IMG/VR virus record: IMGVR_UViG_3300010389_000126
Coordinates: 1 to 24,996 of that record
Length of the DNA stretch: 24,996 nt
DNA from: a virus
Strand: one strand, 5' to 3'
Below are positions 6,001-22,454 of the stretch, piece after piece. The translations under genes and the position numbers were made by a program. Within the stretch, counting starts at the first letter, position 1. The number at the start of each line of letters is the position of its first letter. Below the pieces are notes generated by a model. That model was given only the letters and a program-made list of their open reading frames with translations, was not told the DNA's origin and did not search any database.

Positions 6001-9000
6001 TTAATAATAACTACACCAACACAACTTCTGATGTTAATGGAAATATAATTGATAACAGAGTTAGAGCACAGGAAGGTAATGCTACTTCTGGATCTGAAGA
6101 TCGTCGTATTCCTATTGCTGGTGATAGCAAAGTTGCTTCTGATCAACGTTACTATGTTGAACTTCGCAGACCATCTATCGCTCGTGCTGGTAATCACACG
6201 TTTGAATACCTTGGTTTCGGTCCTGGTAACTACTCTACTGGTCTCCCAGCGCGTCAGGAGATCGTCCTTTCACCTACTGAGGACTTCTATGCCCAAAGTA
6301 AGAAACAGGACGCTGGTATCGTCTTCTACACTGGTCTGAACTCCAACGGTGACCTCTATATTGGTAATCGTAAGATCAACGCTATTACAGGTGAAGAGAC
6401 GTTCCTTGAAGCTGCAGTTTTAGCAGAGAGTGAGGATGATGGAGAAGATATTGGTTCACTTGTTACTACTTTTGACACTCCTGTAACTTTCAACCAAAAC
6501 ATCACAGTTGTTGGTGGAGAAGGGTCATTAACAAACACATTTAATTCACCAATCGTTGTTTCTGTACAAAATAATGATCTGACTGAACAACCAAGTCCAT
6601 TGACTATTCGTTCTTATGTCCAAGGAAACAATCCAATTACAAATGCTACTCAGGATAGATTCTTAGATAGAACATCATTTAATGTTCCTGATGATGGTGA
6701 CATTTATATCGGTCAAAATAGAGTGCAAGCAGCTCTATTTGGAATCACTGGAAAGGGTGACGGACAAGCATATCAAGTACAGACTCATGTTTCTATAACT
6801 AATGAACCAACTAATATCACTCCAAATAATAATGCATTAGTTGCTAATGGTGGTGATAGATTACTTGTATCTCAATTTACAACTTATGATGGAGTTATTC
6901 CTCAACCTGGAGATGTTATTCTCAAAGGTATTGAAGTTGGTAAGAGTGGATCTTTAGGTTGGATATACGCAAATTACTATACTTCTATTGTTGCATCTAA
7001 TATTTTCCAGATTGAATTTAATGGAACAAATGTAGTTAAAGTCATCATGAGAGATGAAGCTACTACATTGCCAGTTACAAATGAAGATCTTGGTATTGTA
7101 TCTGGTTCTCAGATTAGAATTACTAATTTCTATAATCAAACTTCAATCAACGGTGTTTGGACAATTGTAAGTCCTGCAGGAGATGCGTTTAATCTTACCA
7201 ATAACTACTTCCATATTCAGGTTGTTAGTAACATCCCAGCATCTACATTAATCTGGAGAACAGATGTAATTAATGCCGTTACTCCAGGTCTACCACTACC
7301 TAACATTGAGTTCTCTCTTGCTAACTTTAAAGAACTTGGTGTTATTGGTGCAGAAGTACTGAGAACAAACACTGAAAATATTGGCGATTATAAACTTGGT
7401 ATTAACACTGTTGCAAGAACTGCACACAGTGCTGCAAATAATGGATTCGTTTCTACTGAATCTGATCCAAGAGCAAACTTGGATGTAGTTGGTACTGCAT
7501 TTATTAGTGGTAAGACAATCGATTCTTATAAGACTGAAACCACAATTATTAAGACTGAGACAGAGCAAGATAATGCTCTGTTAGTTGGTGGCGATAGTGA
7601 TGATCCAGATAGAGTCGCTACTCTAAGAGTAATGACCACTAATAATGGTAGAGTTGGTATTAATACTGCTGTTACTGATGCTGTCAATCCATTTAAGGAA
7701 CTTGATAAGACATTCGTTGTTGTTGGTGATGCTAGAATCCACGAGAATCTAGAAGTTACTGGTGATTTAGAAGTTAATGATGGAGACATCACTACTACTA
7801 ATGAGACATTCAACTTTGTCAATGCAGATGCTGCTATTTTAAACTGGGGTGGTGATGGTCAGCAGTTAAATCTAGTTAACAATTATAGTGGTGCTCAAAA
7901 TATCAATATTGGTAACGCTGCCAGCACATCTGCTATTCTTATTGGTGGATCTGCATCCAATACGTTATTCAGAATTCATTCACTTTCTCAAGATGCTACA
8001 GTTTCTATCGCTGCTATTGGTAATGATGCAGCAAATAACTGTGACATCCGAATAGGTGGTGCATGGGGTAACACAGCTTCTCAAACTAGAATTGACACTT
8101 ATAATGTTGTTCTTGGTGGTAATATAGAAATTGGTAATCTCTTTGGAGCTGGAACTAGCACTTCTAGATTGTTTACTCAAACTAGAACAGTTAATGTATT
8201 TGATGGTGACCAAACTAACACTGTTAACTTTGCTACAAATGCAACAACCTTGACTATGGGTTCTAGCGGTGGTTCTACTACTGTTAGAAATAGTTTGGGT
8301 GTTGAGGCGAGTGCTACAATAGAAGGAAATATTATTCTAAATGGTGGATTGAATGCTGGTATTCTTGAAATTACTAGAGGAGCATTCAGTACTACTATTG
8401 TAGAGCATAATGTTGGTAGCGTACAGAATTCTAATATTGACTTCTATAAGTACCAGTCTACTGGCAGAGTTATTGATACTCCTGGAGCTTCTTTCTGGGG
8501 TTCTGTTAATTTCTTACTATCAGGTGGTCAGATTGCTGCTATTGATAACATCACAAATAATGGTGATCAATTTAGAAATCCTGGCAATTATCAGTTCTTA
8601 GTTCCAACTGGTGGAACTGGTGAAGGAGCAACCTTCTCTGTTCTCATTAGAGCAGATAAGACGATTGAAATTACGAGAGAAAGTCCTGGTTCTGGATATA
8701 CTGATGACGATCTATTAACACTTACTGCTGCACAACTTGGTGGTGGTGTTGGTGCAGGTGATCTTACTTTCCAAGTAAATGGAACAAATGATGCAGGAAC
8801 TAGTTACTATCTGCCAATTTCCACTCCTTCTATCACTGACTTCCAAATTGGCGATCTTCTTCTAATCGATAGAGGAAATAATGCATCCCCAGATGTTGTA
8901 GGTGTTGCTCCCAACCAAATAACTGGTTTACGAAATCAAGCAGAGAGTGAAATTGTTCGTGTTGTTGGACTTGCAAACCTAACTAATCCAAATGATCCAA

Positions 9001-10331
9001 ATGGATTTAGACTAATCGTTAGCAGAGGTCAAGATGGTACTGGTACATATACAAACCATCCTGATGGTTGTGTTATTGCTAAGTTAGATAAGCAAACTAA
9101 TGCAAGCTTTATCACTGGTTCTGATCTAGATCTTGATGATGTCGTTGATGTTCCAGAATCTGGTATCAGTGCCAATACTGCAAACGTTAGAATTGGCGTT
9201 GCTGAATTTGGCGGAACTATTTCTACTAGAGATTATCTAAGATTATCTGGAAGTGAAATCGTAGGAATTGCTGATATTATTTCTACTTTTGCACAGTCTC
9301 TAATTGTTAATGATGGTGGTTTACCTGCAACGACAACATTCCGAGTAGAATCTACTACTGGCAATACTCAACTTTCTGGTGATCTTGGTGTTGGTCTGGG
9401 ATTCAATAGATTTACTATTGATGGATCTACAGGCAATACAGTAACCCAAGGATCATTAACAACCGAAAATACATTAACAATTAATGGTTCTACAATTCTA
9501 CAGACTCAATTCTTCACTATCACTAATGGTGGAAGTGACACCGTTCCTCTAAGAACTACATTCCAAATTGATACTGCGAATGGTGATATGATTAACTATG
9601 GTGGAGATATGATCTTCTACGGTCAGAATCCATCCACTGGCAATTTTGATGTTCCTCAGTTAGAGTTTATTAACGGAGATCTAACTACCTACGGTTCACT
9701 TTCTGCTGTTGGAACTGGAGTAAGTACATTTGGCGGTGATTTAGTTATTGCAGGAGATATTGAAGTTAATGGTGGAGATCTTGTAGTTAAAACTGAGACA
9801 TCTCTTTCTGGACTACCAAGAAATGCACCTGACAATGTTCGCAATGTAGGAGATACAGTATTTTCTGTTGCTGATGATGGTGCAGTTAATATTGCTGGAA
9901 TACCTAATTACTTTACTAGAACTGGTGGTTCTAAGTGGGAATATTCTGGGGATACAATTATTCAAGCAGAATCTAATATCAACTACTTTATTAATCCATC
10001 TGGTAATACTTTGCTTAAGCTCCCACAAAATGCTTTAATTGGCGATACTATTCGCATTATAGATATTAGTGGAAACTTAACTTATAACCTGTCCTTAGTT
10101 GTTAGAGCACCCGATAATCAAAATGTTCAGAGTTCTATTACCAATACTGGAACTGCTATGTTAACAGCAGTACCTAATTTAAATAATGAATTGGTTGGAT
10201 GGAATGGTGGTGAATTAGTTGTACAGACACCTAACGCTGCATTTGGACTAGTTTACGCTGGTGCTTCAACACCAGACGGCAACCCAGGAGTTCCATCAGC
10301 ACTGGCTGGTTGGTATTTAATGGAAGTATAA
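1..10331 (+). CDS. Giant cyanophage virion structural protein (tail/baseplate fibre type), 5'-partial
   Basis: The reading frame is open from the first complete codon (base 3) to the TAA at 10329-10331, giving about 3,442 visible residues. The first in-frame ATG, at 144, is not the start, because the codons before it read as ordinary protein with the same style (for example HVRASEDAFIQNVSIF). The first ~600 bases encode a beta-rich segment. Bases ~600-3700 encode interleaved helical repeats (annotated separately), ~3700-6080 mixed beta segments, and ~6130-6420 a block of the type seen in other cyanophage structural proteins (RPSIARAGNHTFEYLGFGPG, FYTGLNSNGDLYIGN). The rest is fibre-like, with repeats such as GDLEVNDGD and GDIEVNGGD, and ends in AGWYLMEV. 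No enzyme motif or membrane segment was seen. Very long structural proteins beside tail-collar genes are typical of T4-like cyanophages. The exact virion location (tail fibre, baseplate or whisker) cannot be told from sequence alone. Confidence 0.85.
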   Translation, partial: AFATVPYHAKGDSYWKDDWRNFHVRASEDAFIQNVSIFAVGFADHFLMESGGDMSITNSNSNFGNTSLHAIGFKGFAFNQDKGGYITDIIPPQKVNESSTKNKRVQYYTIDIAGSVADNNNYIKLFLGSETVITPNNRPAVTIDGYRLGAKTDEKLYVKLEASVPGGPDVFNATLEPTGFVKYVTSLDILNPTGFAINNVYADAANLIESNRRMIQEETFGYILEKYPRLQNISYVNPGRDPNANRFYDARNLIIANRQEIINFALGETQESYSSIVLQFGFDDVGLIVDAIAEDLRDGGNSNVINVVSSFFSGGALSQYVGQEEAIIFAYNRVKDHAKKAIANLLSVKADLYDPNPNSNINFVDNYNGTTTAGYTGSEAEELNLTTNGVTVDATNSVDPAGRFKDARNLIVENRQYILDNALAEIAVYHPDFYFPGELQETQYSRFYDAYRFIRRNKDQIQTQVIADIQTQFPGFTFPNGTPDKCRRDIGYFIDAVGLDIFLGGNEYTRKFAEQYFTGPGIGSLAGEETETRYAFDRTKDLLNLAVSNQLTSPPYYVDLTISPGESEYGDGLGDVSNTDPTACADVQSAITTLAGIVDQVIADGDLDSLTDIADPNFVVPTTANLSVVATKCRRDIGYIVDAIAQDLWFGGNEYIISATKEYLVQDSGNTLITNGVEGEVAESITAFKRIGDAINYAINNQLYEKDLTITLDNTGDPPYVSDINADAADLVLKNKEFIAKEAYERMKANFASVQYSWNPGGQLGWTPRPGTTEQDCLDDVYDVLEEVMYNVKFGGNHKTYDAANVYVTNMLGGQMIDTFIDEERDEAAFVFEEAKNVAIDVMRNFVVSPTGDNTLTQYIDNTIVTDWNADLYGIAQTCADAASAISTLMDIVIQAIGTDAGVGNLTGVPRTEPTQPTDYVLNNCSDVLSAVDTLISILCDALDPTYPNEFALDTGLWDCANVRAAIESLVDIAVDSIRGGTLADLPPINTGSFTTDAEASKCFRDVSYIVDAIVNDLRFGGNIASIQAAEAYYVGNDLEYIDGEKTETLDAWNYVGKLATAAMRNFDYLQWDCQTTAGSAIVNVGDTSGIVIGMSVVEYYETDPGGLPGGFVAPYVNGLLQDGASVNPNNIPPGAYVKQILSDTEIELGVKNSRLDFGNTVEALTTGTINLYFTFENGQWADTLPRTVTVGPSASDPDVIQDTAVVPGVVECANTASAIDTLVNDTIVTIINTGVGTVEREEPTINPSSFASRATVFTINTTGYGASNPHNFETGTPVRLVPRARFDTNSGQYVDVDKRLIRLPNGFETNRTYYVIAPGRNTIQGGTEYNNTTFFNGSDQTKLMLATSKENAAAGIYIYSSESNSIDPDVEIDMYQFVLDESYDLHNYTCFLTNTVNAGIQTDISHIFDVPNDQTTPQKVFFRALEGEELPEVSNNALIQFGSLVAITDTLDPNYGKIDPTKEFYAKYQNDKVFTIHTTHADAINGNSPITFQPGQTRKFQIYANKRRSPVKFDPSFVDNVTDSGKWYINLKDESSPSVPANIREENILWRIKQPDLSDRPKSTDMWFIRLDDTRDKDDRTYKLRYVIPKYLENARDPINGFVIKTRTDDTRKLVPQKILLKPVVGTVYGARFANPVQKSEFIGWTSDQIAAAGLNLDLQYDPYKKDLTNSGIDYRAFAKFNSGIQATIQSGRYVESLADPTVKYLELTVFDHAVDVVNFPGLKNENFSTVEITAPQGGSFIVNNETVASNQVTWSGNSTGTANIHKYYSVNGKHYLILKNIGGGKLEYSEYTSTVFTQDQGGGVEVFATMVGDQDMGKSLPLKTLIRKGYPEYYYKQNGANVYTVTPGDRIQDDAGIEYYVDSVEDAGVIEDTFYVFSYETLQRRIAGQQDGIYYLSCLRGNISPFPTGAGVSTNFRRFKFSQPVSSLYPLNYKNDPLWFKKAYTTLEEKALVEDLVDPPSTSCAANNYIHGLVTTNDYKNSVTRELVDDLLDQPSFINNNYTNTTSDVNGNIIDNRVRAQEGNATSGSEDRRIPIAGDSKVASDQRYYVELRRPSIARAGNHTFEYLGFGPGNYSTGLPARQEIVLSPTEDFYAQSKKQDAGIVFYTGLNSNGDLYIGNRKINAITGEETFLEAAVLAESEDDGEDIGSLVTTFDTPVTFNQNITVVGGEGSLTNTFNSPIVVSVQNNDLTEQPSPLTIRSYVQGNNPITNATQDRFLDRTSFNVPDDGDIYIGQNRVQAALFGITGKGDGQAYQVQTHVSITNEPTNITPNNNALVANGGDRLLVSQFTTYDGVIPQPGDVILKGIEVGKSGSLGWIYANYYTSIVASNIFQIEFNGTNVVKVIMRDEATTLPVTNEDLGIVSGSQIRITNFYNQTSINGVWTIVSPAGDAFNLTNNYFHIQVVSNIPASTLIWRTDVINAVTPGLPLPNIEFSLANFKELGVIGAEVLRTNTENIGDYKLGINTVARTAHSAANNGFVSTESDPRANLDVVGTAFISGKTIDSYKTETTIIKTETEQDNALLVGGDSDDPDRVATLRVMTTNNGRVGINTAVTDAVNPFKELDKTFVVVGDARIHENLEVTGDLEVNDGDITTTNETFNFVNADAAILNWGGDGQQLNLVNNYSGAQNINIGNAASTSAILIGGSASNTLFRIHSLSQDATVSIAAIGNDAANNCDIRIGGAWGNTASQTRIDTYNVVLGGNIEIGNLFGAGTSTSRLFTQTRTVNVFDGDQTNTVNFATNATTLTMGSSGGSTTVRNSLGVEASATIEGNIILNGGLNAGILEITRGAFSTTIVEHNVGSVQNSNIDFYKYQSTGRVIDTPGASFWGSVNFLLSGGQIAAIDNITNNGDQFRNPGNYQFLVPTGGTGEGATFSVLIRADKTIEITRESPGSGYTDDDLLTLTAAQLGGGVGAGDLTFQVNGTNDAGTSYYLPISTPSITDFQIGDLLLIDRGNNASPDVVGVAPNQITGLRNQAESEIVRVVGLANLTNPNDPNGFRLIVSRGQDGTGTYTNHPDGCVIAKLDKQTNASFITGSDLDLDDVVDVPESGISANTANVRIGVAEFGGTISTRDYLRLSGSEIVGIADIISTFAQSLIVNDGGLPATTTFRVESTTGNTQLSGDLGVGLGFNRFTIDGSTGNTVTQGSLTTENTLTINGSTILQTQFFTITNGGSDTVPLRTTFQIDTANGDMINYGGDMIFYGQNPSTGNFDVPQLEFINGDLTTYGSLSAVGTGVSTFGGDLVIAGDIEVNGGDLVVKTETSLSGLPRNAPDNVRNVGDTVFSVADDGAVNIAGIPNYFTRTGGSKWEYSGDTIIQAESNINYFINPSGNTLLKLPQNALIGDTIRIIDISGNLTYNLSLVVRAPDNQNVQSSITNTGTAMLTAVPNLNNELVGWNGGELVVQTPNAAFGLVYAGASTPDGNPGVPSALAGWYLMEV
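600..3700 (+). repeat. Three interleaved protein repeat families inside the giant gene
   Basis: Family 1 is a helix of the form DA..LI..NR..I (near 600, 740, 1215, 1345 and 2180). Family 2 has the pattern C-R-D-I-x-Y-I-V-D-A-I-x-x-D-L-x-x-G-G-N, starting at 1458, 1899, 2331 and 3009, with a degenerate Cys-less copy at 843. Family 3 has the pattern C-A-D-V-x-S-A-I-x-T-L, starting at 1752, 2637, 2775, 2880 and 3639. The DNA of family 2 copies 1458 and 1899 is almost identical over their first ~20 bases. The period is irregular (441, 432 and 678 bases between family 2 copies), so this is domain-level duplication with later divergence, not a simple tandem repeat. Confidence 0.75.
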
Positions 10332-10335
10332 TTCT

Positions 10336-11574
10336 ATGTTTTATCAATCTTCTAAAACTGCAAAAGCTGCAATTATAGGCACAATTATGCCATGGTCTGG
10401 TCCTTTGGGAGACATCCCAAAGGGTTGGATTCTGTGTGATGGTTCTATATTAGATGCAGATTTGTATCCTCTTTTGGTTCAAGCAATAGGTGATACTTAT
10501 AATGCTGGTGTTAGCAATTTAGGTGGTTCTTTTCCAGACTATAGTGGTCAATTTGTTCTTCCTGATTTGAATGGAAGGCATTTAATGGATATTGAAGATG
10601 ATTATTTTGATACTGTAGCAAATGGTGGAACTGGAAAAACTGTTGATATTGATGTTGATGCTAGAACTATAATTTCTCCATATATTGGTGATAATGTTGA
10701 TAACGGAGTTCCAACTCTTTTTGCTGGTGGAAGTTCACTTAAGACTGATGTAGAGTTTACTCTTAACGAGAGAAATGGATATGCTGGTAGAATTAATGGG
10801 AACACTATTATTGACGGACAGGGTTCTCAAGTTGTTTATGTTGGTGGAAGAAAATTAGGAGTAAGTCATATAAGAGGTCATGCTCATAATGGTACATATG
10901 AAACTATTCAAGGAGCTGGTACTAATGAACTTAAACCAGGACTTGGTGTTATACCATATGAAAACATTACTACTAGATGGAGATACTTTACTACTGATAA
11001 CGTTACTGACGTATTTGGTGCTGAAGATACAGGTCTAGCACTTAGATATTATTATGAACTTATATCAGATGACTGGCCAACTGTAGAAAATAAAAATGGG
11101 TTTGGTAATGGAATTCCAGGAAGAACGCTTGCATCAGTAAGATCTGAGAGACCACCAACTAATATTAGACCAAAGTATACAACTTGGACTCCTATTCAAA
11201 ATCTTTCTAATTACGTACAAGCACAGTTAGATAGTGAAGCTTCCGTGCAATATGGTCTTTTTGGGTCTACTTTACAAGTGCCTTCGGGATTTAGAAATTA
11301 TTACCCAGATTATCCTGGCGATGGAAATTATGGAACTTTGATTAGTAATCCTGGTACTGCTTGGAGTGATGAGGCAATTCAGGCTCATGATCATGATGTT
11401 ATTGAAATTGAATATGATCAAGGAACTCTCAAACCCCAAAATTCTATTTCATCTGAAGTTGAAATACCAGCAGCTACAGTTTTGGATAATGCAAGTAATA
11501 TTGGTGCGTTGGAGATTGAGATGAATACTAGTCAACCAAGTTTAACATGTCAATACATTATAAGAGCTTACTAA
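10336..11574 (+). CDS. Tail-collar domain protein (short tail fibre-like)
   Basis: 412 residues. Residues ~13-85 match the phage tail-collar domain layout: IGTIMPWSG, then IPKGWILCDGS, a Tyr-rich helix (LYPLLVQAIGDTYN), and a FVLPDLNGRH strand. Two histidine clusters follow, H178/H182/H184 and H351-D-H353. In T4 gp12-type short tail fibres such His pairs bind a metal at the trimer axis. The C-terminus QYIIRAY resembles the KYVIKAY end of the 1012-residue fibre further downstream. The gene starts 4 bases after the giant gene stops, with a GGAAG (10322-10326) 9 bases before the ATG, so co-transcription and translational coupling are likely. Probable role: a trimeric fibre or adhesin of the baseplate. 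The collar call is firm; the exact position in the virion is inference. Confidence 0.8.
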   Translation: MFYQSSKTAKAAIIGTIMPWSGPLGDIPKGWILCDGSILDADLYPLLVQAIGDTYNAGVSNLGGSFPDYSGQFVLPDLNGRHLMDIEDDYFDTVANGGTGKTVDIDVDARTIISPYIGDNVDNGVPTLFAGGSSLKTDVEFTLNERNGYAGRINGNTIIDGQGSQVVYVGGRKLGVSHIRGHAHNGTYETIQGAGTNELKPGLGVIPYENITTRWRYFTTDNVTDVFGAEDTGLALRYYYELISDDWPTVENKNGFGNGIPGRTLASVRSERPPTNIRPKYTTWTPIQNLSNYVQAQLDSEASVQYGLFGSTLQVPSGFRNYYPDYPGDGNYGTLISNPGTAWSDEAIQAHDHDVIEIEYDQGTLKPQNSISSEVEIPAATVLDNASNIGALEIEMNTSQPSLTCQYIIRAY

Positions 11575-11587
11575 TTTTTTAAAACAG

Positions 11588-12469
11588 ATGGCAAATTATT
11601 CCCGAGAGAGATCTAAGTTTGGTGGATGCACTGGATCTATAATTATTCACTCGACTCCTGGCATTGGAATTAACAATGATCCATCTAGTGCAGTTTTTAG
11701 AGAAAATCTTCCAGCTGGTTATTTAAAATGTGATGGATCTATTTTAAATGCATCAGACTATTATGCTTTATCGCAGGTTATAGGTGTTGGAGAATCATGT
11801 AGATTTAAAAAAGAAAGGTCAACATTAAGAAATGCTGATGGTGGAGATTTAGGTCAAATTCAATTACCTGATTTGGGATCGAAAGTTATTCTTGGTGGAA
11901 GATCTACTGGTGTTTATAGAAATGATGTAGTTGATGCAGAAAATACACAATCTTTACCTATCACTAAAGTCGGACCTCAAATCGAAGTTATCAGTAATCA
12001 GGGAAATCAAATTTCCGCTTCTTATGTTGGAAATATGGAGATTCTTAGTAGCGGTGATATAAATTTCTTGGGCAACCCAAAATATAATTTGAGTAGCAAT
12101 ACTAGTGAAACAGAATTATCAATTCAAAATTTTCAGGGACATGCACACAGATCAAATCAAGCTTATTTAAACTATAACGGAAACCATGAAGTTGGTGGAG
12201 AAGGTGGTAAAGATTATGGGAGAAGAAGTGGTAATAGTGGATCTGGTAATGCTTTTTCTTTTACTAATGTTGGTGGCAGTGAATCAATCCATAAACATGG
12301 AATACAAAAACCTTTTTCATATGCACATGATTTTACATATTCTCATTCTGTAACTCCAGTTGATATGGGTGGTGTTGTTGCAAACCTTGATATTGAGTTA
12401 TCAAATGATCAAAAATTAGATCAATTAGTAACACCTTTTATATTAGTAGAATATCTAATCAAGTTTTAG
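11588..12469 (+). CDS. Second tail-collar domain protein
   Basis: 293 residues. The collar signature is at residues ~40-100: LPAGYLKCDGSILNASDYYA, then IQLPDLGSKVILGG. His clusters follow: H185-A-H187, H235-K-H237, and H247/H253 in the sequence AHDFTYSHSV. The region 200-230 is Gly/Ser/Asn rich. The C-terminus FILVEYLIKF is a looser version of the aromatic end seen in the preceding gene. It lies 13 bases after that gene and 3 bases before the next, so it belongs to the same operon. It is shorter than the first collar protein and lacks much of that protein's middle domain. A probable short tail fibre or fibre-tip protein; the collar call is secure, the function is inferred from family. Confidence 0.75.
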   Translation: MANYSRERSKFGGCTGSIIIHSTPGIGINNDPSSAVFRENLPAGYLKCDGSILNASDYYALSQVIGVGESCRFKKERSTLRNADGGDLGQIQLPDLGSKVILGGRSTGVYRNDVVDAENTQSLPITKVGPQIEVISNQGNQISASYVGNMEILSSGDINFLGNPKYNLSSNTSETELSIQNFQGHAHRSNQAYLNYNGNHEVGGEGGKDYGRRSGNSGSGNAFSFTNVGGSESIHKHGIQKPFSYAHDFTYSHSVTPVDMGGVVANLDIELSNDQKLDQLVTPFILVEYLIKF

Positions 12470-12472
12470 AAA

Positions 12473-13882
12473 ATGCCACAATATAGAAATAGTAGGCAAA
12501 TCGGATATAATAGTTGGACTAATGGTGCATGGAGTAGTTTTATGAACTCCTATGCTGCAACTCCTTTTAACACGGGAGGAAGTGGTGTGTCTGGTGTTAG
12601 CTTTAGTGGAAGCACAAATGTCACTGCTCCATGGAGTGGAACTTACACTATAAGAGCAGCTGCAGATGATAGTGGAAACATTAATATGGGTGGTGCTAGT
12701 ACTTCTACCAGTGGTTTTAATGGTGGAGGAAATACTGCCAGTAGATTTTTTAGTAGAGGAAATAATATTAATATATCATGGAGTGTTCAAAACTCTTCAA
12801 CTTCAGATGTTTTTACTGAGAATCCTTGTGCAATCTCATGGACACTTGATGGTCCTTCACAACCACCAGCTCCATTTGCTTCATTATCCGCAAGTCCAAC
12901 GACAATTATTCGGGGGGAGGGAGTTACTCTTACTTGGAGCGGTAGTGGTTCTTATCTTTACAATGCCAGTTTGACTGATTTTTCTAATCCTGGTTTTTCT
13001 GGATCTACTGTAGTTTTTCCTCAGGATGATAGAACTTATACTTATAGTGTATCTGCTGAAGGTGGTATTAGTTCTGTGAGTAGAACTATTACGGTATACA
13101 TTCCACCAACACTTAATTTGTCGGTATCGCCTAATCCTATTGTTGCTGGACAGAGTGCAACAGTTTCATGGAACACTACTGGAGATGGTGATACCGTTAC
13201 ATGGTTATCTGGAAATCTTACTAATCAAAATGTTACTAGTAGTAGTACTGTGTCTCCTTCAGATACAACAACTTATAGTGGATATGTTAGTGGTCTTGGT
13301 GGAACTTCACCAACAGCATCCGTAACTCTTCTTGTCTATCAAATACCTGTCATTAACTCTTTTGATACTCCTGAAACTCTTCTTTATGGGCAGCAAGGAA
13401 ATATATTTTATGATGTTGACTATGCAAATATTTCAATAAGTGTTGATGTTTCTTATAACTATGGTTCTGGATATCAGTTTATAGAAACTGTAAATTTCCC
13501 AAATCTTTCTGACTCTGCCGAGATAGGTGTTGGCACAACTAACGTTACAAATACATTTCCTACAAACATTGTATATAATGATCAAGGACCAAGATTTGTT
13601 CAATATACGTTTAATATTCAGGGTGATGGCGGAAGCATAACGGAAAATAAGATTGTTACTATTGAAATAGATGAAACACCCGATAATTTTATTGTTCCAG
13701 AGACAGATGAAAAAATAAAAGAACAAGAACCAGTATACACGCCTGATATAGTTCCAGATCAAATTTTAACATCAGATTTATTGAGTATTAATGGTATAGA
13801 TATTCCAGTGGAAATTAAATCTAATTTTCCAATCAAAGTAATTGTTAACGAATCTAATCCACGATCTGTTAGGGAGATATAA
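12473..13882 (+). CDS. Adhesin-like structural protein 1: beta (PA14-like?) head, Ig-like domains, shared C-terminal tail
   Basis: 469 residues. Residues 1-130 form a Gly/Ser/Trp-rich beta domain (WSGTYTIRAAADDSGNINMG), reminiscent of PA14-type or jelly-roll carbohydrate-binding folds; this comparison is tentative. Two Ig-like domains follow, ~135-210 (LSASPTTIIRGEGVTLTWSG) and ~211-290 (LSVSPNPIVAGQSATVSWNT ... DTTTYS). A third beta domain lies at ~291-400 (NLSDSAEIGVG, YNDQGPR). The acidic/proline tail at 401-469 (ETPDNFIVPETDEKIKE ... IDIPVEIKSNFPIKV ... VREI) recurs in the next two proteins. No signal peptide or transmembrane segment is visible. The stop codon overlaps the next start as TAATG. 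Ig-like domains are common on phage tails and capsids and help surface attachment. Likely a tail-attached receptor-binding or accessory protein. Confidence 0.7.
   Translation: MPQYRNSRQIGYNSWTNGAWSSFMNSYAATPFNTGGSGVSGVSFSGSTNVTAPWSGTYTIRAAADDSGNINMGGASTSTSGFNGGGNTASRFFSRGNNINISWSVQNSSTSDVFTENPCAISWTLDGPSQPPAPFASLSASPTTIIRGEGVTLTWSGSGSYLYNASLTDFSNPGFSGSTVVFPQDDRTYTYSVSAEGGISSVSRTITVYIPPTLNLSVSPNPIVAGQSATVSWNTTGDGDTVTWLSGNLTNQNVTSSSTVSPSDTTTYSGYVSGLGGTSPTASVTLLVYQIPVINSFDTPETLLYGQQGNIFYDVDYANISISVDVSYNYGSGYQFIETVNFPNLSDSAEIGVGTTNVTNTFPTNIVYNDQGPRFVQYTFNIQGDGGSITENKIVTIEIDETPDNFIVPETDEKIKEQEPVYTPDIVPDQILTSDLLSINGIDIPVEIKSNFPIKVIVNESNPRSVREI
13730..13819 (+). repeat. 90-base near-identical block, copy 1 (partner 17041-17130)
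   Basis: Aligned by eye with 17041-17130 it has 87 of 90 identical bases, including an unbroken 49-base run (13742-13790). The three differences fall at 13741, 13791 and 13810; two are synonymous and one changes Asn to Thr. The block encodes the C-terminal tail segment from PVYTPDIV to IPVEIK. Confidence 0.9.
13871..13876 (+). promoter_or_regulatory. Shine-Dalgarno inside the last codons of the preceding gene
   Basis: AGGGAG lies 5 bases before the ATG at 13882 and is part of the codons for the terminal Arg-Glu of the upstream protein. With the TAATG stop/start overlap this predicts translational coupling. Confidence 0.6.
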
Positions 13883-15672
13883 TGTTAACTTACACATCTA
13901 CTTACAATACGCCTGTTGATGAAAGTGTTACTGGACAAAATACATGGAATATCGATCCATGGATGTATAGTTGTCGTGTTCGTGTTTGGGGCGCAGGTGG
14001 TGGTGGAGAATTTATAAGCAATCCTTCATTAAGTTCAACAGCTGGAAATAATGGAGGAGATAGCAGTATTTTTGGTGTTACTGCAGAGGGTGGCGGTGGC
14101 GGAGGATCTCCGTCTAAAAATAATGGCGGCACTGGCGGATCAACTTCTTTCTCCAATAGTCCAGATTGGAATACTATAGGAATATTATTTACTACTTTCG
14201 ATGGTGGTAACGGCACTATTCCTGCAGGTGGACTTCCTGGTTTTTCTGGTGGTCTTAGAGGACGAGGTGGTAATGGATCTGATGGAAGTAGAACATATAC
14301 TTCTACATCTACCCATTTTTTTAATAATACTACTAATCAGCATATTCAAACTAGTACTAGTAGTGATATTAATATTTTTTACCAAAATCCATCAGCGCCA
14401 GACGGACTCTATGGAACTACACCCTCGAATGGAAAATATTATAGTTTGAGTTTTATAGACCCCTATAAAAATAATAATTGGTCATTTAGTATTTTTAATA
14501 TATGTCAGCAATCAGCGGGTGGTGGAACTGGATTCCCACCATATGGTCTAAATGGTACTAATAATAAAAGTAGTTCTGGTATCAATATTTGGTTTCAAAG
14601 AGGTGATGGTGCTAATGGGTATATTAGATGTTTTACAATCCAAACTACTGGAGTTAAAGTTGGTGCTGAGGGTATAGGTGGTGGAGCTGGGGGATTTGTT
14701 GAGTTTGAATTGACACGGCAGAATTTAATTGATGCTGGATATAATATGAATCCATATGATGAATTTGGCAATCAACGTGTAGGAGACTTGTTAACTTATA
14801 ATATTGGTGCAGGTGGAACTTCTAGTGTTGATAGTGGAGAAGACGGTAGAGTTCAAATAGTGTGGTATGAAATACCTCAAGTTTATTTGGTAGCTAGTTC
14901 GTATGCTGTAGTTGCTGGAACTACTGTTAACTTACAGTGGGAAACTTTTGGAGATGCTGATACATTAACATTCATTTCTGGTGATGTTACTAATAATAAT
15001 CTAACAAGTAGTGAACTTGTAACTCCATTAGACACTACAATATATACAGCACAAGCTAATGGAATTGCTGGTGCTTCATTTAATAATGAAGCAAGTGTAA
15101 CTATAATTGTTTATCAAATACCAATAATTAATAGTTTAGATGTTCCCGAGAGTGTTGATTATGGTAATTCTTTTAATATTTCATATGATGTAGAGTATGT
15201 TAATATTGACATAAAAGTTGATATATCTTATAATTACAATGATGGAAATGGATTTCAATTGGTAGATACAATTGATATTCCTGGAAATCTTTCTGATTCT
15301 GCTCAAATTGGAGTTGGAAATACTAATGCACAAGACATATATTCTTTTGATATTGCATATAATGATCAAGGACCTAGATCCATTCAATTAGTATTTTCTT
15401 TTGAGGGAGACGGTGGAATAATACAAGAAACTAAAATTATACCTATCAATATTGATGAAACTCCAGATAATATAATTATACCAGAAACAGATGATCGAAT
15501 TAAAGAGGAACAACCTGTATATTCACCAAATATTGCTCCTAATGATATAATATTGAGCGATCTTCTGGAGATTCAAGGAATTGATATTCCAGTTGAAATA
15601 AAATCAAATTTTCCAATTAAAGTTATATTAAATAATGATAATCTGGTCTTAAGAAATGTGAGAGAGATATAA
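13882..15672 (+). CDS. Adhesin-like structural protein 2: glycine-rich head, Ig-like domains, shared C-terminal tail
   Basis: 596 residues. The head (1-330) begins like known phage glycine-rich tail domains: an aromatic/Trp beta strand (TWNIDPWMYS), then CRVRVWGAGGGGE, several Gly-rich stretches (residues 69-75 are seven glycines in a row) and a closing strand (YNIGAGGTSS ... DGRVQIVWYE). Such domains are thought to pack polyglycine-type helices at fibre tips. An Ig-like domain follows at ~333-411 (AVVAGTTVNLQWETFGDADT), then a beta domain at ~412-524 (NLSDSAQIGVG, YNDQGPR) homologous to residues 291-400 of the preceding protein. The shared tail is at 525-596, ending RNVREI. The start overlaps the upstream stop by one base; the next gene starts directly after the stop. 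Likely a receptor-binding accessory protein paralogous to its two neighbours. Confidence 0.72.
   Translation: MLTYTSTYNTPVDESVTGQNTWNIDPWMYSCRVRVWGAGGGGEFISNPSLSSTAGNNGGDSSIFGVTAEGGGGGGSPSKNNGGTGGSTSFSNSPDWNTIGILFTTFDGGNGTIPAGGLPGFSGGLRGRGGNGSDGSRTYTSTSTHFFNNTTNQHIQTSTSSDINIFYQNPSAPDGLYGTTPSNGKYYSLSFIDPYKNNNWSFSIFNICQQSAGGGTGFPPYGLNGTNNKSSSGINIWFQRGDGANGYIRCFTIQTTGVKVGAEGIGGGAGGFVEFELTRQNLIDAGYNMNPYDEFGNQRVGDLLTYNIGAGGTSSVDSGEDGRVQIVWYEIPQVYLVASSYAVVAGTTVNLQWETFGDADTLTFISGDVTNNNLTSSELVTPLDTTIYTAQANGIAGASFNNEASVTIIVYQIPIINSLDVPESVDYGNSFNISYDVEYVNIDIKVDISYNYNDGNGFQLVDTIDIPGNLSDSAQIGVGNTNAQDIYSFDIAYNDQGPRSIQLVFSFEGDGGIIQETKIIPINIDETPDNIIIPETDDRIKEEQPVYSPNIAPNDIILSDLLEIQGIDIPVEIKSNFPIKVILNNDNLVLRNVREI
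15514..15603 (+). repeat. Diverged middle copy of the 90-base C-terminal tail block
   Basis: This is the codon-for-codon equivalent of 13730-13819 and 17041-17130, but by hand count only 58 of 90 bases match the first copy. The encoded protein is still clearly homologous (PVYSPNIAP ... IDIPVEIK). The middle copy therefore did not share the recent homogenisation of the outer two. Confidence 0.8.
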
Positions 15673-17196
15673 ATGGCAAGAGTACAGTGCATATCTGTTA
15701 TTGACGAATCTAGTCCCGCACAAGCTATATTTGATGCCGATTGGGATCTTTTTCGAACAAACTATCCTGACAGAGAATTTTGGTTATTGCAACCAGGAGG
15801 TCCTGGTTTTGGACCACTAAAAGAACCAGCAGCATATGTAATTGATCCCTTTGCATATGGACCTATTACTGTTAACAGAGATGGTGGCAATGTCGCCAAT
15901 AGATCTGATTGGTTTGCCATTTGTAACTTAGATACTCAACCATCTGGTGCTGTTATATCTGTTGCTATCGATACATCTGGTAGCATGACTCTTGCAACAG
16001 TCCAAGCATCTTATGATTATTTTCTTGAAAGATGTGCCAGTGCTGGATTAATAATTGTTTTAAATACGACATTTGGTGATGAAAGATGGATACCTCCACA
16101 TAGTATTTCTATTGCTCCTAGTGTTGGATTTTTTATTATAGATGGTGATGGAAATGAAGTAGAACAAATTGAGGTTCTTCCTGGCACTATAGTTACCTTA
16201 GGATGGATTATTTTTGGAGATTCTGATAGTGCTAAAATACAACCAATAGATTATGATATTGCGTCTGCAAACTTCCAAGATGGTAGTACTATAGATGTAG
16301 TAGTAGATGATACAACATCATTTACACTAACTGCATTTGGAAGTGGTGGTGCTCCAGATAGTAATAGAACGGTAACAGTAAATGTAGTACCTCTTCCATC
16401 TATTACTTTAAATGCATCGTTAAATCCTATTGTTGCTGGAAATTGCACTACTTTAAGTTGGAGTACAACAGGTACAGTTGATAGTATAAGTTGGAATGAG
16501 GCATCTGGTATTACCAATGGAAACTTTAATAGTTCTGAAGTCGTTTGTCCATTAGATACAACTACATATACAGTTACTGCAACAGCAACAATTCTTGGAA
16601 TAGTTTACACAGATGTTGCTACAGTAACTATAGTTGTCAATCAACTACCAACAATTGATTTATTTTCTGTACCAGAAGAAGTTGATTATCTTACAACACC
16701 AATTAATATAGAATATGGATTTAGCTATGCTAATGTGTCAGTAGAATTAGAAGTATCTTCTCTTTTTGAAGGTTTTGAAACATATTTTTTGGATACTCTA
16801 TATGATATCACTCCCATTTCTGGAGGAGCACAGATTTCTAGTCTAAATTCAAGTAGAAGTGGTAATATAGATACATCTGTCACTTATAATAATCTTGGTC
16901 CAAACAGTATACAATATGTACTTACTATTACTGGAAGTGGTGGATCTATTTCGCAAAGTAAGATTACTACAGTAAATATTGACAGAACTCCAGATAATAT
17001 AATCATTCCAGAAACTGATGACAAATTAAAAGAAGAAGAGCCAGTATACACACCTGATATAGTTCCAGATCAAATTTTAACATCAGATTTATTGAGTATT
17101 ACTGGTATAGATATTCCAGTAGAAATTAAAGCTAGTAGACCAATTAAAGTTGAAGTGAATCAATCAGGAATACTTGAAAATGTTAGAGAAATATGA
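15673..17196 (+). CDS. Adhesin-like structural protein 3: vWA-like head with DTSGSM motif, Ig-like domains, shared C-terminal tail
   Basis: 507 residues. The head (1-145) contains AVISVAIDTSGSMTLATVQ, with D100-T-S102-G-S104 matching the DxSxS metal-ion-dependent adhesion site (MIDAS) of von Willebrand A domains, followed by a helix (ASYDYFLERCASAG) and a beta strand (LIIVLNTTFGDERW). A full vWA domain is ~180 residues, so this is a short or divergent version and I did not find a convincing second MIDAS Thr/Asp pair. Ig-like or beta domains lie at ~146-240, 241-325 (NPIVAGNCTTLSWSTTG ... DTTTYT) and 326-437. The shared tail occupies 438-507 (TPDNIIIPETDDKLKEEEP ... ENVREI). It starts immediately after the previous stop, and its own stop overlaps the next gene as ATGA. 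Probably a cell-surface-binding tail accessory protein. Confidence 0.7.
   Translation: MARVQCISVIDESSPAQAIFDADWDLFRTNYPDREFWLLQPGGPGFGPLKEPAAYVIDPFAYGPITVNRDGGNVANRSDWFAICNLDTQPSGAVISVAIDTSGSMTLATVQASYDYFLERCASAGLIIVLNTTFGDERWIPPHSISIAPSVGFFIIDGDGNEVEQIEVLPGTIVTLGWIIFGDSDSAKIQPIDYDIASANFQDGSTIDVVVDDTTSFTLTAFGSGGAPDSNRTVTVNVVPLPSITLNASLNPIVAGNCTTLSWSTTGTVDSISWNEASGITNGNFNSSEVVCPLDTTTYTVTATATILGIVYTDVATVTIVVNQLPTIDLFSVPEEVDYLTTPINIEYGFSYANVSVELEVSSLFEGFETYFLDTLYDITPISGGAQISSLNSSRSGNIDTSVTYNNLGPNSIQYVLTITGSGGSISQSKITTVNIDRTPDNIIIPETDDKLKEEEPVYTPDIVPDQILTSDLLSITGIDIPVEIKASRPIKVEVNQSGILENVREI
17041..17130 (+). repeat. 90-base near-identical block, copy 2 (partner 13730-13819)
   Basis: Second copy of the block described at 13730-13819, with 87 of 90 bases identical by eye. 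The flanking DNA on both sides is clearly less similar, so the homology has fairly sharp edges. Confidence 0.9.
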
Positions 17197-17811: not shown

Positions 17812-20800
17812 ATGACTTATTCATTTGCTCCATCTAATGATCCGCTATTTGTATCTGAAGGTGATTTAGTTCAGTTTCAGTTTCAGGCACCACTTACTTG
17901 GAATACTACTGAAACCGTAACAGTTCAAATTGGAGATCTAACTCAGTTCTGGTATATTACCACTATACCAGAAGATTTTACTCCAGATCCATTTCCTTTC
18001 CAGAGATATGAAGGAGCTGAGTTAGACACTTTGTATACATATGCAGATGGAACTAGAGCAGGTGAACAAGTTGTTGTCGTATCAGGATTAACACCAACTA
18101 CTCAAGCAGCAGTATATATTGCTTCTAATGTTTCTGGTGGTATCGATACTTATGCTATTCGCATTGATTATGATGGCGATGGCACATGGGATACACCATG
18201 GTTTCAACCAACTTCTATAGATGCAATTACTGTAGAGAATGGGTCGAGGATACAAATTAGAGGAAGATCTAGTGTATTTTCAAATGATGAAACTAGAATT
18301 AGTGTAGTTATTGGTACATCTTCTGAAACATGGACTATCAAAACAGTAACTATTCCATTAAATGAACCACTTCCATTCCCAGAATTTACTAGTCTTGTTG
18401 GTCTGTCTGCTTTAGAAGTCGCATATAGTAATATTGTTCAGATTACTGGTCTTACAACAGATGCTGTTGTTTCTTTAACTAATGGTGCAACTTACGGAAT
18501 ATCAAATTCTAATGCCACTAGTGTAAATGGAGATGGATATTCTGTATTGACTGGAACTGACTTTGATAATCCTCCAGCGACTGTTTCTAATGGTCAGTAT
18601 TTGCAACTTCGCATGTCTGCTTCTGAATTCGCAAATACGCCAAAGTTAACTTCTGTTAGTATTGGAGATATTTCTGGTGGTTCTAGTTGGACTATTACTA
18701 CTGGATCAAACCCATCAGAGACTCCCGATTCCTTTAGTTTTGATGATCAAACTGATGTATTAGAAAATACTTTAATTGCTTCTAATCCCGAACCACCTGG
18801 AGGAATTAGTGGGTTGGGCATACCTGTTGAAGTTGTTTTAGTATCAACAACTTCAACTGATGTTAGAGTAAAAGTAAATAATGGATCTGTTTCTCTTTTA
18901 CCAGTTACTGTAGAAAATGGTGATGTTTTAACTCTTTATCAACAATCATCTCCAGATTTTGATGGTATTGCTTCAACAGTAGTTCAAGTTGGAACTAGAG
19001 TTATTAGTTCTTGGGATGTAATAACAAATTCTGGACCAGATTATGATGCATTATTTACTCCTCCATCCAATTTAACTAATCAAGTTCCAAATACTTTTGT
19101 AACCAGTTCTTCTATTGAATTGACAGGTATCAATAGACCAATAACAATTACAGCAACAAATGGTGCTTTAATTTCTATTGATTTTGGTACATATGTTGCA
19201 TCTCCTGTTACCTTTGATCCATCTTCTAATTCTTCATTTAGATTAGGACTTCTTACATCAACCTCATTAAACACTCTAGAATCTACAGATGTTGTGGTTG
19301 GCACTGAGGCTGTTGATGTCCCAGCGGTTTCTTTCACTTGGGAAACTACAACATATGCTGTAGCTCCACCACCTCCATCTTATCGTGGTGTATGGTATAG
19401 CAAAAAATCTGAGAAATTTGATGGTTATCCTATTGGAACAGTTTTGCCAGTATTTAAAGAAAATATTGTTGTTTCATATGGTGATCTAAGTGGTGATAAT
19501 AGTTCTAGATATCCTGGATTTGTTGCTTGTGATGGAACTGAATATCCTGTTACTAGATTCCCTCATCTTTGGGATGTAATTAAAAACACGTATGGTGGTA
19601 ATGGTGATTACAACGAAACAACCAAAGAATATAGTGGAGTGTTTAATGTTCCCGATTATAGAAACAGAAGACTAACTGGAACTGGATTTGTTGATGGTAG
19701 TCGATCTTCTTCTGCTGGATTACCTGTAGATACTATTGGTAAATCAATTTATGATGTTGGAGCAGAAGGTGGATATTGGTATTTTGATAAAGTAGATGCC
19801 AGTGGACCAAACCCATTAGAACAGGTAATTGGAACGTCAATTTCTGGTGTTGAAAGTGAATTTTTCACTCTTGGTAGTATAAGAATGACTGGTTTAGAAA
19901 CCCTTACAACAGAAGTTGTATTTGATATAGAAGGTACAGTATCAGCTCAAGTTGGACCTTTGACTAGTGTTCTTGTTACACCACCAGAACATGATCACTT
20001 CTATCTTGCTGCTGTAGTTGAAAGTGAAGATGGTGATCCTCTAAATCCATGGGAACCAGAAGGTAGAGCATTATTTAGAATTGCAACAACAGAAGCTGCT
20101 TTAGAATTAGGTAGTACTGCTCCTGGAGAAGATGGAAGTCTTGGTGGTAGAGATGATTATAGTGATGCTCGTGCAAGAGACTATTGGGAACAATTTATCA
20201 CTAATACTCTTGGAGCTGCCTTCGTTGATGAATTGAGAAAATACGATCCAAATTTTGGTAATTTAAGTAATTTTGTTAATTTGCTTCCTGTTGGAGCTCC
20301 TCCAGGTCCTGGATCTAATCTTGAGTTGCAAGTTGACATTGATTTCTTAACATATTGGGGAAGTCCAGATAGTGTTATGGATGCAGTAAAAGCTCAAGGA
20401 TTGCTGAGAAGAATTGACCCATCTGATGATCCAGCATCATGGCCAGCTACTCACCGTCAACTTACTGCGATTATTGATACTCAACCTACTAATTTTACAA
20501 TAAGTTCTTATACTCCACCAACTGGACAAACATATCCCCATTCTCACGTTATCACTGTTGATCCAGTTAATGATCCACAAACCGATTATACTGCTGGAAA
20601 CGTTGTCGGTGCTGGTATTATTGGTGCTGGTGTTGGTTCTGGATTGGGTAATGCGAATACTCAATTGCAAATTGTTTTCAGTCAAAATAATCCAAATAAT
20701 AATCCAGTTTTTATGGATATGACAGAGGGTACTTTTAGTTTCTTGGATAACTTTAAGAGTCCTGTTCCAGTTGCAGTATTAAGACCACAAAAACAAATTC

Positions 20801-20850
20801 CAGTTATCAATCCATTCCACAAAACTAAATATGTAATAAAAGCTTATTAA
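17812..20850 (+). CDS. Large tail fibre protein: repeated beta modules followed by tail-collar domain
   Basis: 1012 residues. The N-terminal half (1-515) is built from about five beta modules, each ending in a strand pair of the form IG.....W.I.T (near residues 40, 168, 284, 393 and 497), and several also carry V.NG..L.L. A proline linker (519-522) leads to a collar domain at ~538-640: YPIGTVLPVFKE, YPGFVACDGTEYP, then FNVPDYRNRRLTG. His pairs H727-D-H729 (PPEHDHFYL) and H910-S-H912 (YPHSHVITV) are placed like the metal-binding His of short tail fibres. A Gly-rich stretch (932-946) comes before the end, KTKYVIKAY, matching the end of the 412-residue collar protein. No clear Shine-Dalgarno is seen before the ATG, but a late-promoter-like octamer lies 29 bases upstream. 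Probably a host-recognition fibre. Confidence 0.78.
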   Translation: MTYSFAPSNDPLFVSEGDLVQFQFQAPLTWNTTETVTVQIGDLTQFWYITTIPEDFTPDPFPFQRYEGAELDTLYTYADGTRAGEQVVVVSGLTPTTQAAVYIASNVSGGIDTYAIRIDYDGDGTWDTPWFQPTSIDAITVENGSRIQIRGRSSVFSNDETRISVVIGTSSETWTIKTVTIPLNEPLPFPEFTSLVGLSALEVAYSNIVQITGLTTDAVVSLTNGATYGISNSNATSVNGDGYSVLTGTDFDNPPATVSNGQYLQLRMSASEFANTPKLTSVSIGDISGGSSWTITTGSNPSETPDSFSFDDQTDVLENTLIASNPEPPGGISGLGIPVEVVLVSTTSTDVRVKVNNGSVSLLPVTVENGDVLTLYQQSSPDFDGIASTVVQVGTRVISSWDVITNSGPDYDALFTPPSNLTNQVPNTFVTSSSIELTGINRPITITATNGALISIDFGTYVASPVTFDPSSNSSFRLGLLTSTSLNTLESTDVVVGTEAVDVPAVSFTWETTTYAVAPPPPSYRGVWYSKKSEKFDGYPIGTVLPVFKENIVVSYGDLSGDNSSRYPGFVACDGTEYPVTRFPHLWDVIKNTYGGNGDYNETTKEYSGVFNVPDYRNRRLTGTGFVDGSRSSSAGLPVDTIGKSIYDVGAEGGYWYFDKVDASGPNPLEQVIGTSISGVESEFFTLGSIRMTGLETLTTEVVFDIEGTVSAQVGPLTSVLVTPPEHDHFYLAAVVESEDGDPLNPWEPEGRALFRIATTEAALELGSTAPGEDGSLGGRDDYSDARARDYWEQFITNTLGAAFVDELRKYDPNFGNLSNFVNLLPVGAPPGPGSNLELQVDIDFLTYWGSPDSVMDAVKAQGLLRRIDPSDDPASWPATHRQLTAIIDTQPTNFTISSYTPPTGQTYPHSHVITVDPVNDPQTDYTAGNVVGAGIIGAGVGSGLGNANTQLQIVFSQNNPNNNPVFMDMTEGTFSFLDNFKSPVPVAVLRPQKQIPVINPFHKTKYVIKAY

Positions 20851-21530: not shown

Positions 21531-22454
21531 ATGTTTTCTCCATTAGAATCTGTTTTAGAAGCAGACTTTTTAAATAACTACATTCTTATTAAAGAAGATG
21601 GATCTTTTGGTAGTGACCAAAAAATCAGAATGGATTCTGTCCTGAAAGATGGATTTTTAGCAAACGTTGTTGATTCTTTCTGGCATGGTAGCAAAGATAA
21701 ATTAGATTATTTTGTTTTTTATAGTGATGGTTCTTACTTTTGCCAAAGAAGAAAGGAAAAAACTGATTTTAATACTGGAGCAAAATACTGGTCAACATAT
21801 CAATTTACTCACGGCACTAATGAACAAGGTGCAGTATTGAAAGGTCAAATACTTGATTTTTATAATGCTTTACGTGAGGTAAAAGAGATCAAGATTGATC
21901 TTGAGATCAAACAAATTGATGAAAATGTCATTTTCTTTGAACAAAGATATCTCAAGAAAAAGAGAGAAAAGAATGAGATGTTAGCAGGATCTGACTGGAG
22001 AGTATTACCAGACATTGCTGATAGTTATCCTAATGAAAAAGATATGTGGATTCAATGGAGAGCATATCTTAGAGATTTTGTTTTGCTTAAACCAGAAACT
22101 TTTCCTAGTATGCTAGAATTCTTTAAGTATACTTATGATATGAAGTTTCCCATCGATCCCAAAAACTATAGAAAAATATATCCTGATGGATTAACAACAG
22201 AAGGAACTGCAGCACCAGCATATATGGATGAGAATGATCCAAATCAGTGGGGTCAATATGATATTGATGTTTCCAGTGATTTTATGGAAGCAAGACTACA
22301 AAGCATTTACAATCTTGCTAATAGTTATGATACAGGATATAGAAAGATTTCTGAAAATCTGATGAATATCATGAAACTTATTGGTGTCGAGGATGTAGTT
22401 CCTGTTGATTGGAGTAGATATTATACAGATGATGCTGAACTAGAGGGTGCATGA
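21531..22454 (+). CDS. Phage protein with tail-assembly-chaperone-like segment
   Basis: 307 residues. Residues ~138-185 fit the short helical pattern of phage tail assembly chaperones (the type found in tail-fibre assembly proteins, Phage_tail_APC): basic helix KKKREKNEMLAGSDWRVLPD, then EKDMWIQWRAYLRDF. In that family the pattern is R..RN.LL...DW..L.D followed by a W..YR..LRD helix. The first ~130 residues are a mixed alpha/beta domain I do not recognise. The C-terminal part (190-307) has aromatic and Asp-rich stretches (FPIDPKNYRKIYPDG, DENDPNQWGQYD). The start is set by AGAGGT 5 bases upstream. The stop overlaps the next gene as ATGA. Likely helps fold or attach fibre proteins encoded alongside; confidence is moderate on the motif and low on the precise role. 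Confidence 0.55.
   Translation: MFSPLESVLEADFLNNYILIKEDGSFGSDQKIRMDSVLKDGFLANVVDSFWHGSKDKLDYFVFYSDGSYFCQRRKEKTDFNTGAKYWSTYQFTHGTNEQGAVLKGQILDFYNALREVKEIKIDLEIKQIDENVIFFEQRYLKKKREKNEMLAGSDWRVLPDIADSYPNEKDMWIQWRAYLRDFVLLKPETFPSMLEFFKYTYDMKFPIDPKNYRKIYPDGLTTEGTAAPAYMDENDPNQWGQYDIDVSSDFMEARLQSIYNLANSYDTGYRKISENLMNIMKLIGVEDVVPVDWSRYYTDDAELEGA
22443..22447 (+). promoter_or_regulatory. Shine-Dalgarno-like GAGGG within upstream gene
   Basis: GAGGG lies 3 bases before the ATG at 22451, within the last codons of the chaperone-like gene. The spacing is short but supports the coupled ATGA start. Confidence 0.4.

Follow-up and report, generated by a model that had tools for sequence, protein, structure and literature searches.

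The virus record IMGVR_UViG_3300010389_000126 provided the stretch of DNA analyzed here (the window, 24,996 bases), which belongs to a T4-like cyanomyophage (Kyanoviridae). It contains three back-to-back genes, encoding the proteins P1, P2 and P3 of 469, 596 and 507 residues. These proteins probably constitute a modular adhesin cassette of reversed polarity, with exchangeable heads at the N-termini, that is docked via a C-terminal tail, plausibly on P0006, a 'short tail fibre' protein encoded downstream. An earlier note, made from the letters of the sequence, had described the three reading frames, their common C-terminal architecture and their unrelated heads, and was right on all three counts.

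Shared C-terminal architecture and exchange of heads

The C-terminal similarity of P1, P2 and P3 is far beyond chance. BLASTP aligned P1 with P2 at 54% identity over 293 residues (E 4e-97), P1 with P3 at 44% over 342 residues (E 2e-66) and P2 with P3 at 44% over 293 residues (E 1e-58). As every pair aligned over the last 290-340 residues, the shared part comprises immunoglobulin (Ig)-like and beta domains as well as the tail. The motifs YNDQGPR and YNNLGPN, and the segment from TPDN to VREI, were located where the earlier note had described them. The shared tail of about 70 residues is 71% (P2) and 77% (P3) identical to that of P1, and a tail hidden Markov model (HMM A1, ~66 positions) was matched in full length by all three proteins, up to the last residue. 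No BLASTP alignment was obtained among the N-terminal parts.

Monomer models of P1 (based on an alignment of 88 sequences) and P3 were predicted with AlphaFold. The head, Ig-like and beta domains of P1 mostly have a predicted local distance difference test (pLDDT) score above 90, versus 41-65 for the tail. P3 resembles P1, with an alpha/beta head and a tail that is better yet still lower (52-81). Foldseek matched the Ig domains of both proteins to tandem Ig proteins, and as searches with whole models are dominated by such generic domains, they provide little information on the heads.

The head labels in the earlier note are supported to differing degrees. The Gly-rich label of P2 agrees with a Pfam match below the cut-off (Gly_rich_2, E 0.033). 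The PA14-like label of P1 is supported via its relatives: P1 itself has no Pfam PA14 match, two relatives of its head match at E 0.011, a fused relative lies above the Pfam cut-off (E 5.8e-6), and the best BFVD match of P1 is an S-RIM44 protein annotated as 'PA14 domain-containing protein'. The vWA-like label of P3 is the weakest, since its head, with an AIDTSGSM motif and an alpha/beta AlphaFold fold, has no Pfam vWA match and the motif DTSGSM, searched as a regular expression, is found in 9 of 21 representatives of the family.

Clustering of 219 units on their first 130 residues yielded at least eight head families and singletons: the Gly-rich (94 units), PA14-like (40) and vWA-like (34) families and at least five others, among which are a DUF5648 head above the Pfam cut-off and a DUF4114-like head. 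Clustering of whole heads had given one giant cluster through Ig and low-complexity links, and was replaced. The 42 dereplicated loci display 30 different arrangements. The order PA14-like, Gly-rich, vWA-like (P-G-V) of the window becomes V-P-G in S-RIM44 and Sf-CH11, V-G'-G in S-PM2 and G-G-V in S-RIM32, and locus L024 has P-C3-V, all within one open reading frame (ORF). The PA14, Gly-rich and DUF5648 heads hint, by their domain matches, at binding to the host surface and a role in host range, and the heads probably bind host or particle surfaces. As a separate observation, the PA14-like head of L050 (7029-8201) has an in-frame deletion of 237 nt (79 residues) relative to L049 and L051 (6792-8201), in contigs that are otherwise 99.96-100% identical; this is either a natural micro-deletion or an assembly variant.

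The exchange of heads can be observed directly between near-identical phages. The DNA of ACG-2014j US23 (L009) and US103 (L011), which are one species, is 93.4% identical up to +5 nt of the second cassette gene, continues as unrelated stretches of 5.4 kb versus 1.5 kb, and is 94.5% identical again from -8 nt of the tail onwards; as the ends of BLAST alignments are only approximate and run on until the nearest stretch of conservation, the exact breakpoints, here and in the following pairs, should not be over-read. The break between L045 and L052, L055, L056 and L057 lies 16 nt before a tail. Between L066/L073 and L078/L079/L081 the third head alone has been exchanged (the right break falls 769 nt ahead of the tail, at about the Ig domain), and in L031/L033 versus L047 two units have been exchanged for one. 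Other pairs in this comparison break farther from the tail.

Searched alone, the 69-residue tail of P1 matched 43 phage records, to which the divergent tail of S-PM2 added six. All 49 records are T4-like cyanophages or a marine virus placed in the Kyanoviridae, and the cassette members include S-PM2 p223-p225, annotated in the database as 'virion structural protein', and S-CAM3 gp229-gp234. A profile search of IMG/VR retrieved 72 loci with the tail. The tail is thus neither confined to the three heads of the window nor always part of a full-length orthologue, and the swappable-head idea of the earlier note came through the tail-only search of phages intact. A pattern scan of 84,980 bacterial and archaeal species genomes, not exhaustive, gave one match. 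It lies on a 7.8 kb contig of an Opitutia metagenome-assembled genome (L091, 1066-5063) with a tandem-gene layout like that of the cassette; this contig is probably phage DNA that ended up in the bin of a bacterium.

In 183 of 219 copies the tail ends at most 20 residues from the stop codon. Nearly all remaining copies are internal, in ORFs with two or three consecutive units. One C-terminal tail per protein, as the earlier note had it, therefore describes most copies; the fused units found in 11 of the 42 dereplicated loci place a tail inside a protein. The linkers between fused units are short and rich in Gly, Ser and Asn, and several junctions retain a former start Met, which suggests fusion by loss of the stop codon. 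Linkers of the same kind recur after internal tails, for example GTxPxVQGxSVGGNS, at junctions in L001, L009, L024, L031, L039 and L045.

The description as a three-member cassette likewise fits the window and the majority of relatives: three units, however split into genes, are present in 26 of 41 dereplicated complete loci, and 1, 2, 4 or 6 in the others. A heterotrimer of exactly three units was rejected as an explanation, three being the mode and not the rule. Some relatives have no cassette at all. The same gene module with an empty slot was found in ACG-2014h, S-H9-1, S-RSM4 and S-WAM2 (L094, L096, L097 and L098), so the cassette is dispensable for the module.

Association of the tail with the genome

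A comparison of identities among the 42 dereplicated loci revealed that the tails have been homogenised genome by genome. Tails of differently headed units are 0.65 identical within a genome and 0.47 between genomes, whether the heads match or not, versus 0.39 within and 0.31-0.33 between genomes for the beta domain. At matched beta-domain identity (0.2-0.4) the tails still reach 0.59-0.64 within a genome, compared with 0.43-0.49 between genomes. None of 2000 permutations attained the within-genome tail identity (observed 0.641, permuted maximum 0.498). The trees agree with this: on the tail tree the genome label requires 69 changes (shuffled minimum 99) and the head label 49 (shuffled minimum 50), so that the tail follows the head only slightly. 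The beta tree requires 37 changes for the head label (shuffled minimum 51) and 90 for the genome label (shuffled minimum 98), and follows the genome less. Tail length is largely genome-specific as well, and common to the copies within a genome.

Part of this homogeneity is explained by gene conversion. Identical runs of at least 30 nt occur in 10.3% of the within-genome tail pairs versus 0.2% of the pairs between genomes, and extend up to 86 nt (L069). In the window, the codon listing of the P1 and P3 tails contains 49 consecutive identical nt, and a probable conversion tract connects the two genes (Table 1). Synonymous identity of the tail is 0.62 within genomes and 0.52 between them; as it is raised only modestly, most of the amino-acid homogeneity is not recent conversion.

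The tail and the repeats of P0006

When the tail HMM was run over all other ORFs, the top rank was taken by an internal segment of P0006 orthologues, as a weak match. The matched segment is included in a repeat of about 90 residues, the TPD beta-repeat, of which P0006 has four copies. With hhalign the tail scored 22.8 against the TPD repeat (E 9e-4) and the whole C-terminus 28.6 (E 2.6e-4), versus a maximum of 16.6 for 200 column shuffles, 6.2 for the reversed profile and 11.3 for the beta domain. The tail aligns in register with the start of the repeat and stops about two thirds through, the last strands being missing. Judged by these profiles, it is likely a truncated copy of the TPD beta-repeat.

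Cassette phages have the TPD half of P0006 in their full-length orthologues (47 used), and it is missing from the P0006 homologues of all four empty-slot phages that were fetched (the four named above). In this comparison, with four cassette-less phages inspected, nothing but the N-terminal half of P0006 distinguishes phages that carry the cassette from those that lack it. Simple co-occurrence was discarded as a means to pick the docking partner, because all genes of the module co-occur. The TPD repeats seem to be a common connecting element of the cassette locus. A different arrangement was observed in Sf-CH1b (L092, 2191-8637), where the proteins in the cassette slot, of 681 and 1466 residues, each terminate in four complete TPD repeats, which are missing from the P0006 homologue, an apparent alternative distribution of the same connector.

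In the reading that we favour, each unit would be a rod, composed of an exchangeable N-terminal head, one or two Ig-like spacers, the beta domain and the C-terminal docking tail, the heads having folds of a carbohydrate- or surface-binding type. The tail would probably represent the first two thirds or so of the TPD beta-repeat from which the N-terminal half of P0006 is built. Unable to complete a domain alone, it would most likely be ordered once it stacks on a common partner or is completed by it; a plausible partner is the TPD array of P0006, near the baseplate. If a common partner orders the tail, all units of a phage should have tails matched to that phage. Heads move between phages by recombination, with one break at a unit start and the other at the tail or up to a few hundred bases ahead of it. 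Most likely the units are adhesins whose C-termini attach them to one common site, presumably on the virion. There is indirect support for the docking of the tail to a common virion site, as proposed in the earlier note, from the genome-wise homogenisation, the poor order in the AlphaFold model of P1 (less so in that of P3) and the likeness to a truncated repeat; for the partner we tentatively put forward the TPD array of P0006 as the leading candidate. A more far-reaching possibility, on balance a doubtful one, is a plug-in system, in which an unfinished copy of a repeat from the phage's own fibre, completed or stacked by the fibre array, mounts any head and also serves as the DNA homology for exchange.

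Several observations weigh against this reading. The HH-suite probability for the tail and the TPD repeat is low (23-42), though the match outscores every control, which makes homology likely, not proven. The number of TPD repeats in P0006 is nearly always four and does not track the number of units, so that the idea of the one setting the other was rejected. The module genes are inherited together, and their co-occurrence therefore does not single out P0006. The moderate confidence of the P3 tail (52-81) implies that a tail unfolded on its own is not a uniform property, and in the comparison of the window with its close orthologue L018, the tail does not evolve more slowly than the beta domain. 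Furthermore, chemostat evolution of S-PM2d reportedly struck genes that surround the cassette, S-PM2d218, 219, 220 and 224, and the accessible part of that report does not name the cassette (S-PM2d 221-223, counted by gene order) among the mutated genes (PMC9910659); as far as that part goes, this weighs mildly against the cassette as the main adaptive site on WH7803. Finally, the host range of ACG-2014 phages showed little link to lineage (PMC5112629).

Alternatively, the tail could be a recognition signal for a shared assembly chaperone, such as the tail assembly chaperone-like protein of the module (phrog_4697), with the Ig and beta part attaching to the virion and the genome-wise matching of tails reflecting co-evolution of tail and chaperone. 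This gene indeed co-occurs with the cassette, the poor order of the tail when P1 is modelled by itself would suit a segment bound by a chaperone, and the retention of internal tails in fused proteins would suit a folding signal per unit. We nevertheless regard it as unlikely, considering the resemblance of the tail to a repeat of the structural neighbour P0006 and the presence of the chaperone-like gene in phages without the cassette, where it has other clients.

T4 Hoc also exposes Ig domains outward and is anchored by its C-terminus. The units might correspondingly be Ig-rich decoration rods that sit with their C-termini on the capsid or tail surface, assist a weak attachment to cells or particles and do not decide host range. 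RB49 Hoc (3SHS) appears at Foldseek rank 10 for P3 and PHROG places the families in 'head and packaging'. However, many unrelated Ig proteins score equally, searches of PDB sequences gave no Hoc match, the PHROG label itself reads only 'virion structural protein' and the genes reside in the tail-fibre/collar module at all complete loci, which together render Hoc-like decoration improbable.

Very improbable, in our view, is that the tail has no docking role and is the best-conserved end of a tandem gene family kept alike by conversion between neighbours: tandem copies convert easily, the tracts are concentrated in the tail and its dN/dS (non-synonymous over synonymous substitution) between close orthologues is similar to that of the beta domain, but the modest rise in synonymous identity, the better conservation of tails than of the beta domain between genomes (0.47 versus 0.31-0.33) and the retention of tails in fused proteins speak against it.

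Known systems and gene neighbourhood

Like the T4-like fibres and adhesins gp37, gp38 and gp12, the cassette proteins are tail-fibre-module proteins of a host-interaction type, in which recombination preserves the virion-facing part and changes the distal part. In gp37 and gp12 a conserved anchor is N-terminal and the C-terminus variable, whereas in the cassette the conserved, presumably virion-facing part is C-terminal and the heads are N-terminal. Moreover, unlike T4-type fibres, it has several differently headed paralogues per operon, sometimes fused. The N-terminal Ig-type domains and presumed C-terminal anchor are shared with the Hoc proteins of T4 and RB49, as is the Ig fold with RB49 Hoc; non-Ig heads, a tail-fibre gene neighbourhood and a tail unlike any PDB sequence (matches at E 0.6-0.8 only) set the cassette apart. 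The chaperone-usher tip adhesin FimH combines an N-terminal binding domain with an incomplete C-terminal beta domain that is completed by its partner. The cassette units would be alike in both respects, by analogy and not by homology: usher, periplasmic chaperone and sequence relation are lacking, and completion in trans is our hypothesis.

The PHROG families 2155 (E 7e-99), 29022 (E 2e-115) and 9770 (E 2.5e-147), described as 'virion structural protein', cover P1, P3 and P2, respectively, the profile of phrog_29022 aligning with both P1 and P3. Depending on head and fusion state, the cassette is split or merged by these families, which do not describe the shared tail, the head exchange or docking. 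A search of NCBIfam gave nothing meaningful, and in the open literature that was searched we found nothing on the cassette or on the locus tags it has in S-PM2. Phage receptor-binding proteins are well known to undergo modular exchange, and the cassette therefore does not represent a new kind of system. Judged by the searched literature, its new features are the reversed polarity, an operon with several heads and fusion variants, and a genome-bound tail with mobile heads.

Host recognition by marine T4-like cyanophages is poorly known, and laboratory evolution implicates many structural genes and no clear receptor-binding protein (PMC9910659, PMC6224464). The cassette, which may help the virus to change its attachment target, offers a testable set of defined interchangeable heads, a defined tail and a candidate partner, as well as natural, near-isogenic isolates (ACG-2014j US23/US103, S-CAM4), whose differences across the locus are mainly in the heads. 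Were the tail a general mounting plug, one short sequence would index the diversity of heads across Kyanoviridae metagenomes.

In all 61 loci that are sufficiently complete to judge, the slot of the cassette is bordered by a P0004-like and a P0006-like gene. A megablast search of the region against phages gave no match. The features of the window are listed in Table 1.

Table 1. Cassette, neighbouring genes and repeats in the window (res, residues).
Feature	Position	Strand	Basis or remark
P0007, giant tail protein, 3395 residues, module of the cassette	144..10331	+	phrog_4527
P0005, collar-domain short tail fibre, 412 residues, module of the cassette	10336..11574	+	phrog_4591, Pfam Collar
P0004, tail collar protein, 293 residues, upstream border of cassette	11588..12469	+	phrog_4714, E 1e-126; 61 complete loci
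P1, 469 residues, unit 1: PA14-like head, two Ig-like domains, beta domain, tail	12473..13882	+	
P1 head (res 1-130), PA14-like, head family C1	12473..12862	+	clustering; pLDDT ~81-96 (10-residue blocks); Pfam PA14 in relatives
P1 two Ig-like domains (res ~133-290)	12869..13342	+	AlphaFold pLDDT >90; Foldseek to tandem Ig proteins
P1 beta domain (res ~291-400), contains YNDQGPR	13343..13672	+	
P1 tail (res 401-469), ETPDN to VREI	13673..13879	+	pLDDT 41-65; truncated TPD repeat likely from profile comparison
P1 side of probable conversion tract with P3	13727..13819	+	89/93 nt identical, codon listing
P2, 596 residues, unit 2: Gly-rich head, one Ig-like domain, beta domain, tail	13882..15672	+	
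P2 head (res ~1-330), Gly-rich, head family C0	13882..14871	+	
P2 tail (res 526-596)	15457..15669	+	
P3, 507 residues, unit 3: vWA-like head, two Ig-like domains, beta domain, tail	15673..17196	+	
P3 head (res ~1-157), alpha/beta, motif DTSGSM, head family C2	15673..16143	+	
P3 tail (res 438-507)	16984..17193	+	pLDDT 52-81
P3 side of probable conversion tract with P1	17038..17130	+	codon listing
2-oxoglutarate (2OG)-Fe(II) oxygenase separating P3 from P0006	17193..17783	+	phrog_61
P0006, 'short tail fibre', 1012 residues, downstream border and candidate docking partner	17812..20850	+	phrog_4924
P0006 TPD beta-repeat 1 (res 58-167)	17983..18312	+	E 5e-23
P0006 TPD beta-repeat 2 (res 186-284)	18367..18663	+	E 2e-19
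P0006 TPD beta-repeat 3 (res 305-393)	18724..18990	+	E 5e-17
P0006 TPD beta-repeat 4 (res 418-496)	19063..19299	+	E 3e-14; spot of the tail HMM in most orthologues
Tail assembly chaperone-like protein, module of the cassette, rival partner of the tail	21531..22454	+	phrog_4697

Four 2OG-Fe(II) oxygenase-like genes are found among the tail-fibre genes of the window (17193-17783, 20856-21521, 22451-22945 and 22911-23456). Some genes of this type are named 'DNA endonuclease V' in PHROG and RefSeq, which looks like a misannotation. The gap between P3 and P0006 in L018 equals the oxygenase gene of the window in size; in most loci the two are nearly adjacent, with no gene between them. In S-PM2, a tRNA-Gly is annotated within the giant tail-fibre ORF, on the same strand (L003 2630-2701, S-PM2 173312-173383).

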